Source of the DNA: Boletus sp. NGJ
Taxonomy: Eukaryota; Basidiomycota; Agaricomycetes; Boletales; Boletaceae
NCBI GenBank assembly: GCA_019096195.1
Contig: JAGTXK010000257.1
Coordinates: 116,135 to 180,134 of the forward strand
Reading direction: 5' to 3'
Length of the DNA stretch: 64,000 nucleotides
Shown here: positions 57,569 through 63,843 of the stretch, one piece after another
Layout of the letters: every line of letters starts with the position of its first letter
Numbering within the stretch: the stretch's first letter is position 1
Translations under genes and position numbers: made by a program
The notes under the pieces: model-generated
Told to the model about the DNA's origin: nothing
The model's input: the letters and a program-made list of their open reading frames with translations, nothing else
Database searches by the model: none

Positions 57569-58030
57569 ATTTTAAGGGATCTAATCTAATTGGGTAAGGG
57601 CTACCATAGGGTACAGGTAACATCAACATAGCAAACCACGCACATGCGCCAATGGCGCATGTGCGCGTCCACAACAACATCGCAATAAAACATGAACAAT
57701 CGAGTGTTGATAACGACGACTGCGGCATAAACGATGAACAGATGAAAACGAGGGATATGTTGAGTGTAGTTATACAGCGCGCACATGCGCGCACGGCGCA
57801 TGTGCGTGTGAAATAAGCAACAACAACAAGACACATGTTTCACATTTATACGACAAACACGCCGATGCGCCATGAGAGCATCTGCTCAGTTGGTAGGTGT
57901 GTCGTACTATAGACAGCGCGCACATGCGCCATGTGCGCATGTGCGCGGGAAACAAACAACAAACAAGACCTCAGTACGACACACCTATCAACTGAGCAGA
58001 TGCTCTCATGGCGCATCGGCGTGTTTGTCG
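57569..58030. repeat. Inverted-repeat element, copy 2, truncated at telomeric repeats
   Basis: It is the same element as at 55151, beginning with the same TTTTAAGGGATC. The left arm is 57703-57911 with few differences, followed by a shorter centre (57912-57973). The right arm starts at 57974 but ends after 57 bp, at GTTTGTCG. The next base starts TTAGGGTTAGGTTAGGG. In copy 1 the arm continues past this point. The cut is therefore inside the element and is capped by telomeric sequence. Confidence 0.85.
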
Positions 58031-58047
58031 TTAGGGTTAGGTTAGGG
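58031..58047 (+). repeat. Telomeric repeat tract 1
   Basis: TTAGGG TTAGG TTAGGG, G-rich strand reading rightwards, directly joined to the broken inverted-repeat element. The chromosome end that was capped here lay to the right. Confidence 0.85.
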
Positions 58048-58455
58048 AGCCGAGCCGAGCCGCGAAGCGGCGAGGCGAGGCGTTACCGGCGGTAAGGCGA
58101 TAACGCTGTTGCCTCGGCAAGGGATTACCTTATGGGTCGCACTAGAGATATTGTCTACCGGTCGAGTACCAATTCGCCGGCGGTGTCTAGCCTTAGCTAG
58201 CACCCTAGTGTTTATCTACACTAAAGGCCCGTCATGGGTTTCGACCTTTTGGTCTCATCAGTAGGGGCGCACACCCCTAAACCCACACCACCTTAGGACA
58301 TACTAACCGGCTTATGTACACCTCACCATGATTTTGTATTGTCCTGGGCAGACTGGCTCATGAAATTTCCTTTTCGGGACTTATGACCGCCATACTAAGG
58401 AATTTCTCCCACGCAGTCGCTTTCAGACCCCGCAATCACGTGTCATTGGTGTGCC
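58048..58455 (-). mobile_element. Telomere-attached unit, family A (carries a type III hammerhead)
   Basis: A 408-bp unit is bounded on the left by telomeric tract 1 and on the right by TTTAGG-type repeats at 58456-58473. Its left 92 bp (58048-58139), GC-rich with an AGCCG/GCGAAGCGGCG fold, recur with minor changes at 59417-59508. If the sense strand is minus, as the ribozyme indicates, the shared 92 bp are the 3' end and the second copy is 5'-truncated. There is no open frame of note, so it would be non-autonomous. Confidence 0.65.
58231..58288 (-). ncRNA. Hammerhead ribozyme, type III
   Basis: On the minus strand all core elements are present. Stem III is UGUGGGU with ACCCAUG; the cleavage triplet is GUU. 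Stem I is UAGGGG/CCCCUA closed by a UGUGCG loop. The core CUGAUGA follows, then stem II GACC/GGUC with an AAAA loop, then GAA. Every catalytic-core nucleotide fits the consensus. Stem III is the open stem, hence type III. Self-cleavage would occur after the base complementary to position 58280. Confidence 0.85.
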
Positions 58456-58473
58456 GGTTTAGGTTTAGGGGGG
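58456..58473 (+). repeat. Degenerate telomeric tract 2
   Basis: GGTTTAGGTTTAGG followed by a G run; variant telomere-like repeats at the junction of two units. Confidence 0.6.
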
Positions 58474-58910
58474 AGCGAGCACTCGAGCGAAGCGAGAGTG
58501 CGAGCGGGGATAGTGTGGGATGGTGCCAGATAGGTAATAGGCTGAGGGCGACCAGCTCTCAACCACCTATTTCGTCCGGGGACTCATCAGACCTCTGGCG
58601 GAATAGTGAAAAGAATTTCTTGATACTCACCTGTATTTATAGGGAAGAGTACGCGCACGGACCATTAGTGATAACGTGGGAGAGCGGAGATAGACGCAGC
58701 GGAAATTAAAGCCGGATCTTGCCGGTTGCACTCGGATCTTTCCGGTTGCGCTTCTGCGTGAGAATTCTCTCACGGCTGCGGTAATTAAATTGCCGAGCCG
58801 GGTGTCGCAGTAGACCGAGTCGGGCCGCTCGGGTCATCGGTCCGATGCCTTTCGGTTATCTGGGCGCAACCCCTAAATCTCACCCCTTGGGCCACCGTTA
58901 GTCCTAGACC
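58474..58910 (-). mobile_element. Telomere-attached unit, family B, copy 1
   Basis: A unit of about 440 bp lies between telomeric tracts. Read on the minus strand, 5' to 3', it has a conserved front (CACCCC..CCACCGTTAG on plus), a long conserved body with GGATCTTGCCGG repeats, a TATAAATA box (58634-58641), the hammerhead at 58525-58599 and a terminal hairpin (GCACTC/GAGTGC) next to the telomeric repeats. No protein is encoded. Confidence 0.7.
58525..58599 (-). ncRNA. Hammerhead ribozyme, type I, copy 1
   Basis: Minus strand. Stem I is GCCAGA-GGU pairing with ACC-UA-UCUGGC (a two-base bulge), followed by CUGAUGA. Stem II is GUCC/GGAC in a tight hairpin, then GAA. Stem III AUAGG/CCUAU is extended by UGAG/CUCA. 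The cleavage triplet is AUU. Stem I is open, hence type I. The three other copies (58985, 59570, 59841) keep the core unchanged while the distal stem III varies. Confidence 0.88.
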
Positions 58911-58930
58911 GGTTAGGGTTAGGTTAGGGG
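58911..58930 (+). repeat. Telomeric repeat tract 3
   Basis: GGTTAGGGTTAGGTTAGGGG at the junction of family B copies 1 and 2, same orientation as tract 1. Confidence 0.8.
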
Positions 58931-59408
58931 GGGCCGAGCACAGCGAGCGAAGCGAGCTGTGCGAGGGGGATAGGAGTGGGATGGTGCCAGATAGGTAATA
59001 GGCGATGGGGCGACCGCTTCCATTGCCACCTATTTCGTCCGGGGACTCATCAGACCTCTGGCGAATAGAGAAAAGTATTTCATAACTCTTACCTGTATTT
59101 ATACAAGAAAGAGTCGCGCACGGACCATTAATATAACGTGGGAGAGCGGAGATAGACGCAGCGGAAATTAAAGCCGGATCTTGCCGGTAACACTCGGATC
59201 TTTCCGGTTGCGCTTCTGCGTGAGAATTCTCTCACGGCTGACGGTAATTAAATTGCCGAGCCGGGTGTCGCAGTAACCGAGTCGGGCCGTTCGGGTCTTC
59301 GGTCCGATGCTTCTTTCGGCTATCTCCGGGATCAGTCTAGACCACTTACGTAATATTATCTCACCCCTTGCCGGGGGTGTGCCACCGTTAGGTTCTCTAA
59401 GTTTAACC
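58931..59408 (-). mobile_element. Telomere-attached unit, family B, copy 2
   Basis: About 478 bp, full length, with the same order of parts as copy 1. The terminal hairpin is GCACAGC/GCTGTGC, the TATA-like box lies at 59096-59103 and the ribozyme at 58985-59062. The right (5') boundary CTAAGTTTAACC is followed by GGTTAGGG and then by the truncated family A copy. Confidence 0.7.
58985..59062 (-). ncRNA. Hammerhead ribozyme, type I, copy 2
   Basis: Core and stems I and II are identical to copy 1. The distal part of stem III is AUGG/CCAU instead of UGAG/CUCA, so pairing is kept although three of four pairs differ. The AUU cleavage triplet is kept. Confidence 0.88.
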
Positions 59409-59508
59409 GGTTAGGGAGCCGAGCCGAGCCGCGAAGCGGCGAGGCGAGGCGTTACCGGCGGTAATTCGATAACGCTGTTGCCTCGGCAAGGGATTACCTT
59501 ATGGGTCG
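59409..59508 (-). mobile_element. Single telomeric repeat plus 5'-truncated family A copy
   Basis: GGTTAGGG (59409-59416) is followed by 92 bp matching 58048-58139. The rest of family A, including its ribozyme, is missing, and family B copy 3 follows directly. In the minus-strand sense this is a copy truncated at its 5' end. Confidence 0.65.
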
Positions 59509-59728
59509 GGAGCGGGCCGAGCTGCGAGCGGAGCGAGCAGTGCGAGCGGGGATATGTGTGGGATGGGGGGCCAGATAGGTAATAGGCGTGGGGCGACCGC
59601 TTCCAACCCACCTATTTCGTCCGGGGACTCATCAGACCTCTGGCGAACTAGTGAAAAGAATTTCTTGTTCCTTACCTGTATTTATACGGGAAAGAATCGC
59701 GCACGGGCCATTAATAAGAACGTGAGAA
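59509..59728 (-). mobile_element. Telomere-attached unit, family B, copy 3 (5'-truncated)
   Basis: It has the terminal hairpin (CTGC/GCAG variant), the ribozyme at 59570-59644 and the TATA-like box at 59679-59686. It then stops near AACGTGAGAA, about 40 bp beyond the TATA box, where telomeric repeats begin. The conserved body of copies 1, 2 and 4 is absent. Confidence 0.7.
59570..59644 (-). ncRNA. Hammerhead ribozyme, type I, copy 3
   Basis: Core, stem I, stem II and AUU triplet as in copy 1. The distal stem III is weaker here (a few G-C pairs from GUGGG/CCCAC). The 3' flank is C-rich instead of ACC. Confidence 0.85.
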
Positions 59729-59790
59729 GGTTAGGGTTAGCCGTTTAGCCGTTAGCTGCGATAGGGTTAGGGGGGCGAGGGGTTAGGGGG
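59729..59790 (+). repeat. Telomeric and degenerate telomeric tract 4
   Basis: GGTTAGGGTTAG, then TTTAG/GTTAG variants and two further TTAGGGGGG runs, between family B copies 3 and 4. Confidence 0.75.
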
Positions 59791-60261
59791 GCGAGCACTC
59801 GAGCGAAGCGAGAGTGCGAGCGGGGTAGTGTGGGATGGTAGCCAGATAGGTAATAGGCTGAGGGCGACCAGCACTCAACCACCTATTTCGTCCGGGGACT
59901 CATCAGACCTCTGGCGGAATAGTGAAAAGAATTTCTTGATTACGTACCCTGTATTTATAGGGAACGAATCGCGCACGGACCATCAGTGAAACGTGGGAAT
60001 AGCGGAGATTACGCAGCGGAAATTAAACCGGATCTTGCCGGTTGTCACTCGGATCTTTCCGGTTGCGCTTCTGCGTGAGAATTCTCTCACGGCTCGCGGT
60101 AATTAAATAGCCGAGCCGGGTGGCGCAGATAGCCGAGTCGGGCCGTTAGGTCTCTCGGTCCGATGCTTCTTCGGCAATCTCCGGGATCGGTCTAGACCAC
60201 TTACGTAATTTATTCTCACCCCTTGCCGGGGGTGTGCCACCGTTAGGTTCCTAAGTTAACC
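59791..60261 (-). mobile_element. Telomere-attached unit, family B, copy 4
   Basis: About 470 bp, full length. The hairpin GCACTC/GAGTGC, the ribozyme at 59841-59915, the TATA-like box at 59952-59959, the conserved body and the 5' boundary CTAAGTTAACC are all present. It is followed by the longest TTAGGG tract of the window. Confidence 0.7.
59841..59915 (-). ncRNA. Hammerhead ribozyme, type I, copy 4
   Basis: Same core, stems and AUU triplet as copy 1, including the UGAG/CUCA distal stem III; one base of the distal loop differs. Confidence 0.88.
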
Positions 60262-60319
60262 GGTTAGGGTTAGGGTTAGGGTTAGCACGTTAGGGTTAGC
60301 GGTTAATAAGTTAGGTTAA
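60262..60319 (+). repeat. Telomeric repeat tract 5
   Basis: Three perfect TTAGGG repeats, a further one after GCAC, then degenerate GGTTAA/GTTAGG units. It lies at the 3' side of the Penelope-like element. Confidence 0.85.
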
Positions 60320-61279: not shown

Positions 61280-63843
61280 TCACCGGTACCCTTTATCTGC
61301 TAGACGTTCCAACACGATCTTTTTCCAAAGATTTGTGAGGTCGAATAGTTGCGTAGTGCGTTTCCGCGATACGATTATTCGACGGTCTAGGATATCCGTA
61401 CGCCGGAGGTCAGGGACCTCAGTCGGTGTACCATCAGCACGCACAGACTCTATACAGAGCCGGGGCTTCCGGTCCACGTCATCCGTGTAGCCAACTGGCT
61501 CCGGGGGGAATTCTATGTTGAATTCCTTACGCTCGGCTTTATACAGCCAAGATCGCATATATCCTAGGATCGTGTCTCCTAGTTTAGTGACGGAGAATAG
61601 CTCCCATGCCGTGTTGTACTCGGTTTTGAGCACCAGGGCCGCGCTTGCCGCTGCGACATCGGATTTGGTCGTTAAGCGATTGTTCCATCGCTCCTGGAGT
61701 TTATTGCGTCTCCAAGTACAACAGCAGCGCCTCGTCATATCCACGCATCACATAGATGGAAACCAACCAATCTAGCGCATCGAGGTAGTTTTCGAACGTA
61801 CTACTCAGCGTGGCGAGACGACTCATTTCACCGTAGAATGTACCTCGTTTGACATCTATCGGGTGACCTGAGACATAGGGGATTCTCTGGTGGAGCGACT
61901 TGGCCTTCTGGTATGGTCTATGCTGCAATTTCCCTCTATCATCCTTATAGAGCAGCATATCCAGGAAAGGCTGGGCATTGCCGACGTCCCACGTTATGAC
62001 GCAATGATCGATTTTTACATTCTCGGTGCATAATGGCTAGCGCTTCCTGAGGGCTGCTTGCGTACACTATGCCGAGACAATCGTCGATATACCTACCGTA
62101 GTAGGCTATCCGTGGGTGATTGAGAATTCCATCACGTTTTTCGCAGAACCACCCATACAAATTAGCGAGGTCCGGCGAGTCTGCGACGCCCATTGCTAGG
62201 CCGTTTAGTTGTTGGAATATCTCCCCATCGAATTGCGTCAGCAGCTCCGTGTTACCAACCCGTAAACAGTCGTTAAAGAACATAACAAAGTTATGCACCG
62301 ACAACCCGTTCCAATGCTCATTCTCGTCCCCTTCATTCTGGTAGACCCATTCGACAAACATGCCGAAGACTCTATCCAAGCACAATTCCAAAGGAATGTT
62401 GGGGTAATAAGCAACTACATCGCCGGTGACGATGTAGAATTTGGCACCCGGGATCAGGTGGAGCTGGCTCAATTTTATCGCCAAATCTTTGCTGCCATGG
62501 ATGACAGTTAGCGCCTCGTCAACTAGAGGTTTGAGCATTTTACTACAGAATTTGGCGGCCGGATTCTGGATCGCGCTATGACAGGGTAGGATGGGCCTGA
62601 ATTTGACTGGTTGTTTATGGATCTTTGGGATTCCATAAAAGCGCGGTATATGGTGATCTGCCGTAGGGGCGGTAACAAGATGCTTTAAGTATTCATCTAT
62701 GGAACCATATTTCCAGCAATATATGTCCGACCGCTGAGAGAGTAAGATCATCTCGTTACATTTTTTATCGAGGATCTGTTTCGCAGCAGCGTTGTCGAGG
62801 CGTTTGTATTCGCGCTCGTTTGACAAACATGCGAGGGTATTTTCTATAATCCAGGTCCGCTCTGACACCGCTAAGCCGAGGTTCTTGTCGGTAGGAGTGA
62901 TCACATAGTCGTGATCCAACATGAACTTGCGTAACTCGTTTACCTTGGGACCGAGCGGTTTGAATGTGCCGTCGACAAGGCCATCAAGCGGGGCATTGGC
63001 AGTGACGTTGTGGACGTATGCACGCCCTCGCTTGAGAGCGAGTTCGCAATAAAACGGTAATACGGGTGGGTCCGCCTTACTGGGCGGAGACACATCGTAA
63101 TCGGGATCATAGGTAGTATTAGTTTCTCCCTCTAATATAAATTTGACCTTCCATCTAAAGCGTCTTACGAAGTCTAGATACGCGTCAGTGATCAATTGCG
63201 TCTGACGCGGTTGGTGAAACATATGTTTCATACCGATACCAAGGTCGAGTTCTAACTCCCGCGGTATAGAAACTCCTGGGCCTGTATGTATACGTGATTT
63301 GAATCGGCCAGCCTCTACAAACTTAAGAGGGATATGTCGAATCACGCAACTTATGGCCTGCAAAGGTGAGGCGAAGTCTATAATCTCATCCGGTAATGTC
63401 CAGTACTTGGGGTACTCATAGTCACTCATTAAAGAGTCCAAACACGAATCACAGATCGCATTGAGTGTAGGAATGTCCATAAAGTCATCTACACTATTTT
63501 CTACGGAGTCCTTTCCTAAGCTCCTTCTTTTGCTCCCGGATGAGCGCTCTACCCTCTGCGAGCAGCCTTTCCCTTGGCCCCATGTGCTTGGCCTTTCGGT
63601 GGGGGGCCGGAGGGGGTGCGGGCCTGCGCCTGAGATCGAGGCGCTCCTCCGCGGTTGCTCTTCCCTCCTCTTCCCGTTGCTTGAGGACGACGCGGGATAC
63701 GACCTCCGGTTGAAATACGCGCTGACTTGTGCGCGCTCTTGCGGGGGGGATGCTGTTGATGACCCTGGGGACCAGGGCCGGAGGGACGAAGTGGCTTCAA
63801 CAGCAGTTAGTCGTCTGTTTACCGGTACAGAAACGACAGACAC
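61280..63843 (-). pseudogene. Penelope-like reverse transcriptase with two frameshifts
   Basis: The 632-codon frame (63843-61945) has, in order, TPTDKNLGL (about residue 316), FYGIPKIHK..FRPI, motif A TGDVVAYYPNIP (about 474), motif B GLAMGVADSPDLANLY (about 546) and motif C YYGRYIDDCLGI (about 586). The family-typical continuation, VITWDVGNAQPFLDML..IPYVSGHPIDVKRG, is in a second frame from about 62027. A third frame from about 61720 gives KLQERWNNRL and runs to a stop at 61280. Both shifts look like single-base changes, so this copy is probably dead, or the assembly has indels. The upstream frame begins with GTG. A GTAAGT donor near its start suggests the true N-terminus is spliced from the ORF to the right; retained introns are known in this family. 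Confidence 0.82.

Follow-up and report, generated by a model that had tools for sequence, protein, structure and literature searches.

Probable serial addition of units with predicted hammerheads beside a likely Penelope-like element at a predicted telomere of Boletus sp. NGJ

How do short units with predicted hammerhead ribozymes come to be strung between telomere repeats beside a reverse transcriptase (RT) element? The question is raised by the last 64 kb of contig C1 of Boletus sp. NGJ (the window, which ends with the contig at contig position 180134; the genome examined comprises 32.8 Mb in 141 contigs, to which all C-numbers refer). Six stretches at 58048-60262 of the window fall into two families, A and B, as the original prediction held, and are followed by an RT element on the minus strand. 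TTAGGG-type tracts give seven matches (at most one mismatch), against a mean of 0.12 in shuffled sequences, and their position on the plus strand suggests that the chromosome end lies to the right of the array; the terminus itself is outside the assembled sequence, the window stopping at the contig end. The explanation favoured here, at a probability of about 0.7, sees the array as a relay in which pieces of two elements were serially added to an exposed telomere by one predicted telomerase-like RT, B being the 3' end of the likely Penelope-like element itself and A a separate non-coding family that this RT would copy in trans.

The B units and the reverse transcriptase element

In all 12 copies of the RT element with a visible 3' end (some near-identical, so not 12 independent cases), that end is a B unit, joined to the element body by CCGG (CTGG in C10), (TTAGGG)3, TTAGCA(C/T)G and a degenerate telomere-like stretch. 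Distances between element bodies are correlated with distances between their B units (Mantel r 0.934, 0/20000 permutations; r 0.943, again 0/20000, without C50b and C20b). A tree of 27 rows (12 element-B units and 15 solo B units of at least 400 nt, chimeras left out) does not unite the solo B units in one clade but scatters them among several element-B lineages, two at a distance of 0.000. B is evidently the 3' end of the RT element and not the non-autonomous family that had been proposed, and the last of three B units first described as full (59777-60262) is the tail of the element in the window itself. The closest lineage to B unit 1, at 6.0%, is the C20/C46 element-B, and B unit 2 differs from the C118 element-B by 1.2%. 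Because the window B units derive from different element lineages, the array was most likely built by separate additions rather than by one tandem duplication; the predicted serial addition, head to tail and in one orientation, is upheld, with 20 contigs carrying units.

Solo B units end exactly at CCGG/TTAGGG, the point of the element's internal tract, in 11 of 37 cases (9 if the C1/C30 and C50 duplicates are counted once; the 11 include C1:174596, for which the alignment stopped short and the end was located by eye, and the 37 retain the chimera C118:226462, C10:282001 with the element tract, C74:175770 cut by a contig end, and a broken unit at C107:495742 that counts as two pieces). The other B ends, and the A ends besides those of five 933-nt units, fall for the most part at scattered positions, a few of which recur (B 140, 288 and 482; A 311). 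The best account of the stops at the internal tract is that copying ended in CCCUAA and left TTAGGG. The main rival is recombination of the internal (TTAGGG)3 with an outer tract, deleting the element body much as solo long terminal repeats (LTRs) are formed: TTAGGG stands at both ends of the part that would be deleted, the stop lies exactly at the tract, and the telomeric MoTeR arrays of Magnaporthe recombine likewise, according to the accessible part of PMC7367193. Most other A and B copies, in contrast, are truncated at scattered points, for which incomplete copying or terminal loss is needed anyway, and recombination is considered an unlikely source of the solo units.

The RT frame in the window (61945-63843, minus strand) has its last part out of frame relative to its relatives, and an uninterrupted frame of 1223 aa is found at C107. 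The RT is of the telomerase/Penelope kind: telomerases occupy rows 1-15 of the VIA-align result for its structure model, so that its predicted fold is telomerase-like, with a telomerase as the best model match, and the element is likely a Penelope-like telomeric element. Among the 120 matches listed for the RT, those with an organism name are from Armillaria, Psilocybe and Mycena, in keeping with a host that is probably an agaricomycete. No GIY-YIG domain was matched in the 1223-aa frame (to E 1) or in 14 aligned proteins (to E 0.01), 8 of which match RVT_1, in searches that could miss remote domains. Sequence searches of the PDB gave no match, and the related protein P0002 had none in viral contigs.

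The mechanism envisaged starts from an RNA tail, CCCUAACC, which would pair with GG or TTAGGG at a chromosome end, or sometimes at an internal break or nick, where copying would begin. Early stops would be frequent, and a stop inside the internal CCCUAA tract would leave a TTAGGG that could serve as the start site for the next unit or for telomerase. Transcription from a predicted TATA box about 50 nt upstream of the B hammerhead core would lead from each outer copy into the copy on its inner side, and the resulting read-through RNA would be trimmed or separated by the hammerhead. The internal telomere tract suggests a way for an element to leave a usable telomere despite failed copying.

Shared 3' end, predicted ribozymes and family A

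The 3' end of both families is a hairpin that has a triloop and two 2x2 internal loops and is followed by the telomere complement; in B, the order of core, about 75 nt with the hairpin, and telomere complement is that of a Terminon-type 3' end. Several B arm sequences retain the hairpin pairing, a compensatory change, and a B variant on C50 is without the inner loop. Read on the plus (cDNA) strand, the same hairpin (58048-58081 in A unit 1, and at the start of every full B unit) shows a GAA triloop and internal loops of tandem GA/GA, and by RNA parameters it is more stable on that strand than on the sense strand in nearly all listed variants. Of 84 units that keep the 3' end (a count that includes duplicates), 72 are attached by it to TTAGGG: 41 to longer telomere repeats and 31 to a single TTAGGG, which GG precedes in 26 of the 31. 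The other 12 have no TTAGGG. Within the window, the proposal that TTAGGG-type tracts mostly separate the units holds to the extent that tracts exceed chance; it fails where truncated A (to 59508) joins truncated B (from 59511) without TTAGGG, and 59729-59776 is a scrambled telomere-like scrap.

Five hammerhead cores start at 58261, 58590, 59053, 59635 and 59906, all in the orientation of the RT frame (minus), and they are of the two predicted kinds, type III in A (one) and type I in B (four). The core pattern matches the window five times, against a mean of 0.01 in 100 shuffles, and the whole genome 66 times, against 2 in a reversed control; 58 of the 66 lie inside A or B units. Three stems could be fitted to 58 of 62 cores in the loci examined (37 type I, 21 type III), type tracking family in all 58. 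Among units long enough to include the core, 36 of 40 from B and 19 of 22 from A have it intact. Stem III of B occurs in 10 variants among 36 units, of which nine form the main helix and one (2/36 units) folds otherwise. The A and B cores had no match in viral contigs, nor had the B core in prokaryote genome contigs.

Of 39 B units, 36 contain the box TATAAATA; where box and core occur together (35 units), the box is 50-54 nt upstream. This position predicts a transcription start immediately ahead of the ribozyme and transcripts that extend inward through the neighbouring copy. Unit ends fall within 5 nt of a predicted cut in 0 of 49 B and 0 of 44 A stretches, a weak negative because few would be expected by chance, on which hammerhead-cut linear RNA was set aside as the usual template. 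The templates are probably uncut RNA; for an anole Penelope-like element, insertion in vitro is independent of cleavage (PMC11167929).

Five full A units, of about 933 nt, are present, a tandem of four at C107 and a single one at C20, and GGGTTAGGG links each of them to a further A unit; the window copy at 58048-58456, first taken for full, is actually 5'-truncated at about 411 of 933 nt. The third C107 unit differs from the others by 1.4%, so the tandem is not a repeated copy of a single template. The longest M-to-stop frame in A is 78 aa, in line with the prediction that the units encode no protein; the predicted Penelope-like RT next to them is likewise supported. In being non-coding, 933 nt long (within 600-1000 nt) and equipped with a predicted type III hammerhead, A resembles retrozymes; the two hammerhead LTRs and 4-bp target duplications of plant LTR retrozymes are not found, the A copies being truncated or in tandem without LTR pairs, nor do A and the RT element share both ends in the manner of MoTeRs. 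A is a separate non-coding family and the sole candidate for copying in trans. A direct-repeat check at 13 further loci found three internal A copies flanked by repeats (C109, 19 nt ending in GGTTAGG; C111, 18 nt with 2 mismatches, ending in GGTTGG; C114, 31 nt ending in GTTAG; exact lengths are uncertain because the repeat ends overlap the element's own tail), and none at the other 10. The telomere-like ends of these repeats point to pairing of the RNA tail with short sites of telomere-like sequence in chromosome interiors as well.

A more ambitious proposal, possible but held tentatively, is that A is a telomeric retrozyme: a 933-nt RNA that would be cut by its own type III hammerhead, form a circle with a telomere-complement joint and be copied onto chromosome ends in trans by the Penelope-like cousin of telomerase, while the telomere tract of the helper RNA would make an aborted copy a new landing pad. 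If so, A and its helper would constitute a two-ribozyme, self-seeding system of end extension alongside telomerase.

Several observations weigh against the relay of two elements. Pfam RVT_1 matched none of the scanned element proteins of this genome. Of 84 3' ends, 12 are without TTAGGG, and telomerase healing could yield identical junctions. The window scan found no Rfam family at its cut-off, and the covariance models that had been named as a check on the ribozyme folds therefore fell short: the A hammerhead scored 43.0 bits against RF00008 (E 4.8e-7; curators' cut-off 48.5), and the four B cores scored weakly (17.6-21.2 bits, E 0.72-7.4). Position 17 is U at both predicted cleavage sites, where U is less usual than C. 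The free fold is lower than the hammerhead fold by 1.8-5.6 kcal/mol in B; the figure for A is 0.7. The longest exact stretch shared by A and the RT element is 12 nt, so the case for copying in trans rests on the hairpin and the junctions. Finally, copies are not independent (C1/C30, C50 and the tandem A duplicates).

Copies across the genome and layout of the window

A first genome search returned at least 49 B and at least 41 A matches; rechaining with the longer A gave 49 B and 44 A stretches, 93 in all, on 20 contigs (matches overlapping a better one by more than half were removed beforehand). The original prediction would have been refuted by units lying mainly at internal loci without telomeric junctions, and the result is divided: 10 contigs carry a unit no more than 5 kb from an end, and the remaining 10 have units further inside, some old and degenerate. 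On 8 of the 10 terminal contigs the units point wholly outward, C50 carries a head-to-head palindrome and C84 points inward. The A and B families are often but not only subterminal.

That arrays spread mainly by break-induced copying of whole blocks, the elements being long dead, would account for the A/B block with nearly identical truncations common to C1 and C30 and for another shared by C81 and C122, yet it is judged improbable: unit order differs between most contigs, the 1223-aa frame at C107 is uninterrupted, and identical copies occur on different contigs, although block copying could produce those too. The C81/C122 case (C81:1700939-1701767 and C122:312160-312988) is one old B+A block with identical ends and flanks, a segmental duplication. 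Still more doubtful is the original proposal of two independent non-autonomous elements, A and B, each copied in trans, with the RT element merely lying atop a B unit; solo B units with an identical 5' end are common (11/37) and could be a full-length small element, but the constant 18-nt joint in 12/12 visible element 3' ends, the co-divergence of B with the element and the polyphyly of solo B among element-B lineages led to the rejection of B as an independent element. An assembly artefact, by collapse or chimera of repeats, is very improbable, since 93 unit stretches on 20 contigs have mostly regular junctions and hairpin and stem III variants re-pair, even if two units (C118:226462 and C107:490363) look like a mixed A/B consensus and C50 has a 98.9% palindrome at a contig end; the suspicion of collapse applies to a few units, and the arrays recur on many contigs.

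Some loci are unusual in themselves. C118:226462-226992 and C107:490363-490746 alternate A and B letters as if reads had been averaged and are likely assembly artefacts. C50:375122-386843 holds two head-to-head RT elements with arms 98.9% alike (5017 columns) at a contig end, a possible fold-back artefact, and C20:140256-154301 holds two more, 93.0% alike (4256 columns), contig-internal and of two lineages, which could be a telomere fusion. C107:495953-496111 is a longer, more regular TTAGGG tract (>120 nt) lying 23 kb inside the contig with other sequence after it, either an internal telomere or a misjoin. The solo B units at C20:123911 and C20:137130 stop at an identical point against a repeat starting TGAGACATCCTAGGGCATGCTAGGG, which is also found at the end of C118 and is another element breaking the units.

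The features of the window are collected in Table 1. Just inside the first telomere tract, at 57569-58030, lies a palindrome-rich fold-back repeat starting TTTTAAGGGATCTAATC, which also occurs after truncated A and B units on C44, C46, C107 and C114. Rfam matches to mir-942, mir-941 and mir-5366 inside this subtelomeric repeat are below the family cut-offs and were discarded, mir-942 being a false match there.

Table 1. Features of the array and the adjoining element, in window positions; cut sites, hammerheads and promoter boxes are predicted.
Feature	Position	Strand	Remarks
Telomere tract TTAGGGTTAGGTTAGGG, innermost junction	58031..58047	+	
A unit 1, 3'-terminal ~411 nt of ~933-nt non-coding element	58048..58456	-	98-100% to other A copies
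3'-terminal hairpin, A unit 1	58048..58081	-	design common to B
Type III hammerhead, A unit 1	58233..58287	-	cut 58279/58280; RF00008 43.0 bits
Telomere-like tract TTTAGGTTTAGGGGG	58458..58472	+	
B unit 1, solo, variant 5' end	58470..58912	-	end at CCGG/TTAGGG
Type I hammerhead, B unit 1	58525..58599	-	cut 58535/58536
Promoter box TATAAATA, B unit 1	58634..58641	-	
Telomere tract separating B units 1 and 2	58913..58931	+	
B unit 2, solo	58922..59411	-	end at CCGG/TTAGGG
Type I hammerhead, B unit 2	58986..59062	-	cut 58996/58997; TATAAATA 59096-59103
A unit 2, 5'-truncated to ~92 nt	59417..59508	-	without hammerhead
B unit 3, solo, truncated at ~223 of 486	59511..59728	-	hammerhead 59570-59644; TATAAATA 59679-59686
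B unit 4, 3'-terminal region of the RT element	59777..60262	-	hammerhead 59841-59915, cut 59851/59852; TATAAATA 59952-59959
Constant internal tract	60264..60281	-	(TTAGGG)3 on plus strand, (CCCTAA)3 in sense RNA; then degenerate telomere-like to ~60321
Penelope-like element body, cut by contig end	60282..64000	-	RT frame 61945-63843

Comparison with known systems

Fungal Penelope-like elements reportedly carry hammerheads, as described in a paper of 2014. Penelope-like elements are also placed at Agaricus chromosome ends in the accessible part of PMC7473861. The original prediction that the arrangement was undescribed is too wide, in view of the mixed telomeric arrays of MoTeR1 and MoTeR2 (PMC7367193) and of the 3' hammerhead with telomere-complement repeats of Terminons (PMC6431247), as the available portions of these papers describe them. 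Terminons share with the Boletus element, on the same partial evidence, an RT without endonuclease, a 3' hammerhead beside reverse-complement telomere repeats, 5' truncation by telomere repeats and head-to-tail arrays (PMC6431247), and Athena shares telomere repeats embedded in the element, to judge from the accessible part of PMC10088271. Compared with Terminons and Athena as reviews describe them, the Boletus system differs in that its type I hammerhead looks canonical and has a long stem III, its 3' hairpin is a separate structure, a TATA box stands beside the ribozyme, and a type III partner without coding capacity accompanies the element.

Plant retrozymes of 600-1000 nt with a type III hammerhead (PMC6155905, in part) resemble A, which is non-coding, 933 nt and of type III; unlike them, A has no flanking LTR pair, joins telomere repeats and ends in a 3' hairpin and a telomere complement of its own. 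For animal retrozymes, the likely helpers named in PMC7229834 and PMC7761336 are Penelope-like elements, and PMC7761336 describes what hammerheads do in such elements as unknown.

MoTeR1 and MoTeR2 of Magnaporthe (PMC7367193) and the FoTeRs of Fusarium (PMC12857005) likewise form telomeric head-to-tail arrays with outward 5' ends, 5' truncation and short TTAGGG tracts between units, as the accessible text of both papers has it, but they are non-LTR retrotransposons. MoTeR2 is a defective partner of the autonomous MoTeR1 (PMC7367193, in part) and shares both ends with it, whereas A shares only the hairpin design with the RT element; a word search of the accessible FoTeR text (PMC12857005) found no mention of a ribozyme. 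In the HeT-A, TART and TAHRE elements of Drosophila, a promoter in the 3' region serves the next copy of the array (PMC5537684, in its available part), a role predicted here from the TATA box. Drosophila telomeres are without telomerase repeats, whereas in Boletus TTAGGG remains and the RT fold is predicted to be telomerase-like.

A literature search, with most subscription journals outside its reach, found no report of a non-coding telomeric element with a type III hammerhead beside such an RT. The helper-client link, the role of the ribozyme and priming at chromosome ends are open to direct testing in this one fungus, whose compact genome combines dozens of junctions with a helper frame free of interruptions, a candidate client that is non-coding, and a 3' hairpin common to both families. 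Judged on sequence, what appears to be new is the retrozyme-like telomeric partner with a predicted type III hammerhead beside a Penelope-like element, and what was already known are the features shared with Terminons, Athena and MoTeRs.

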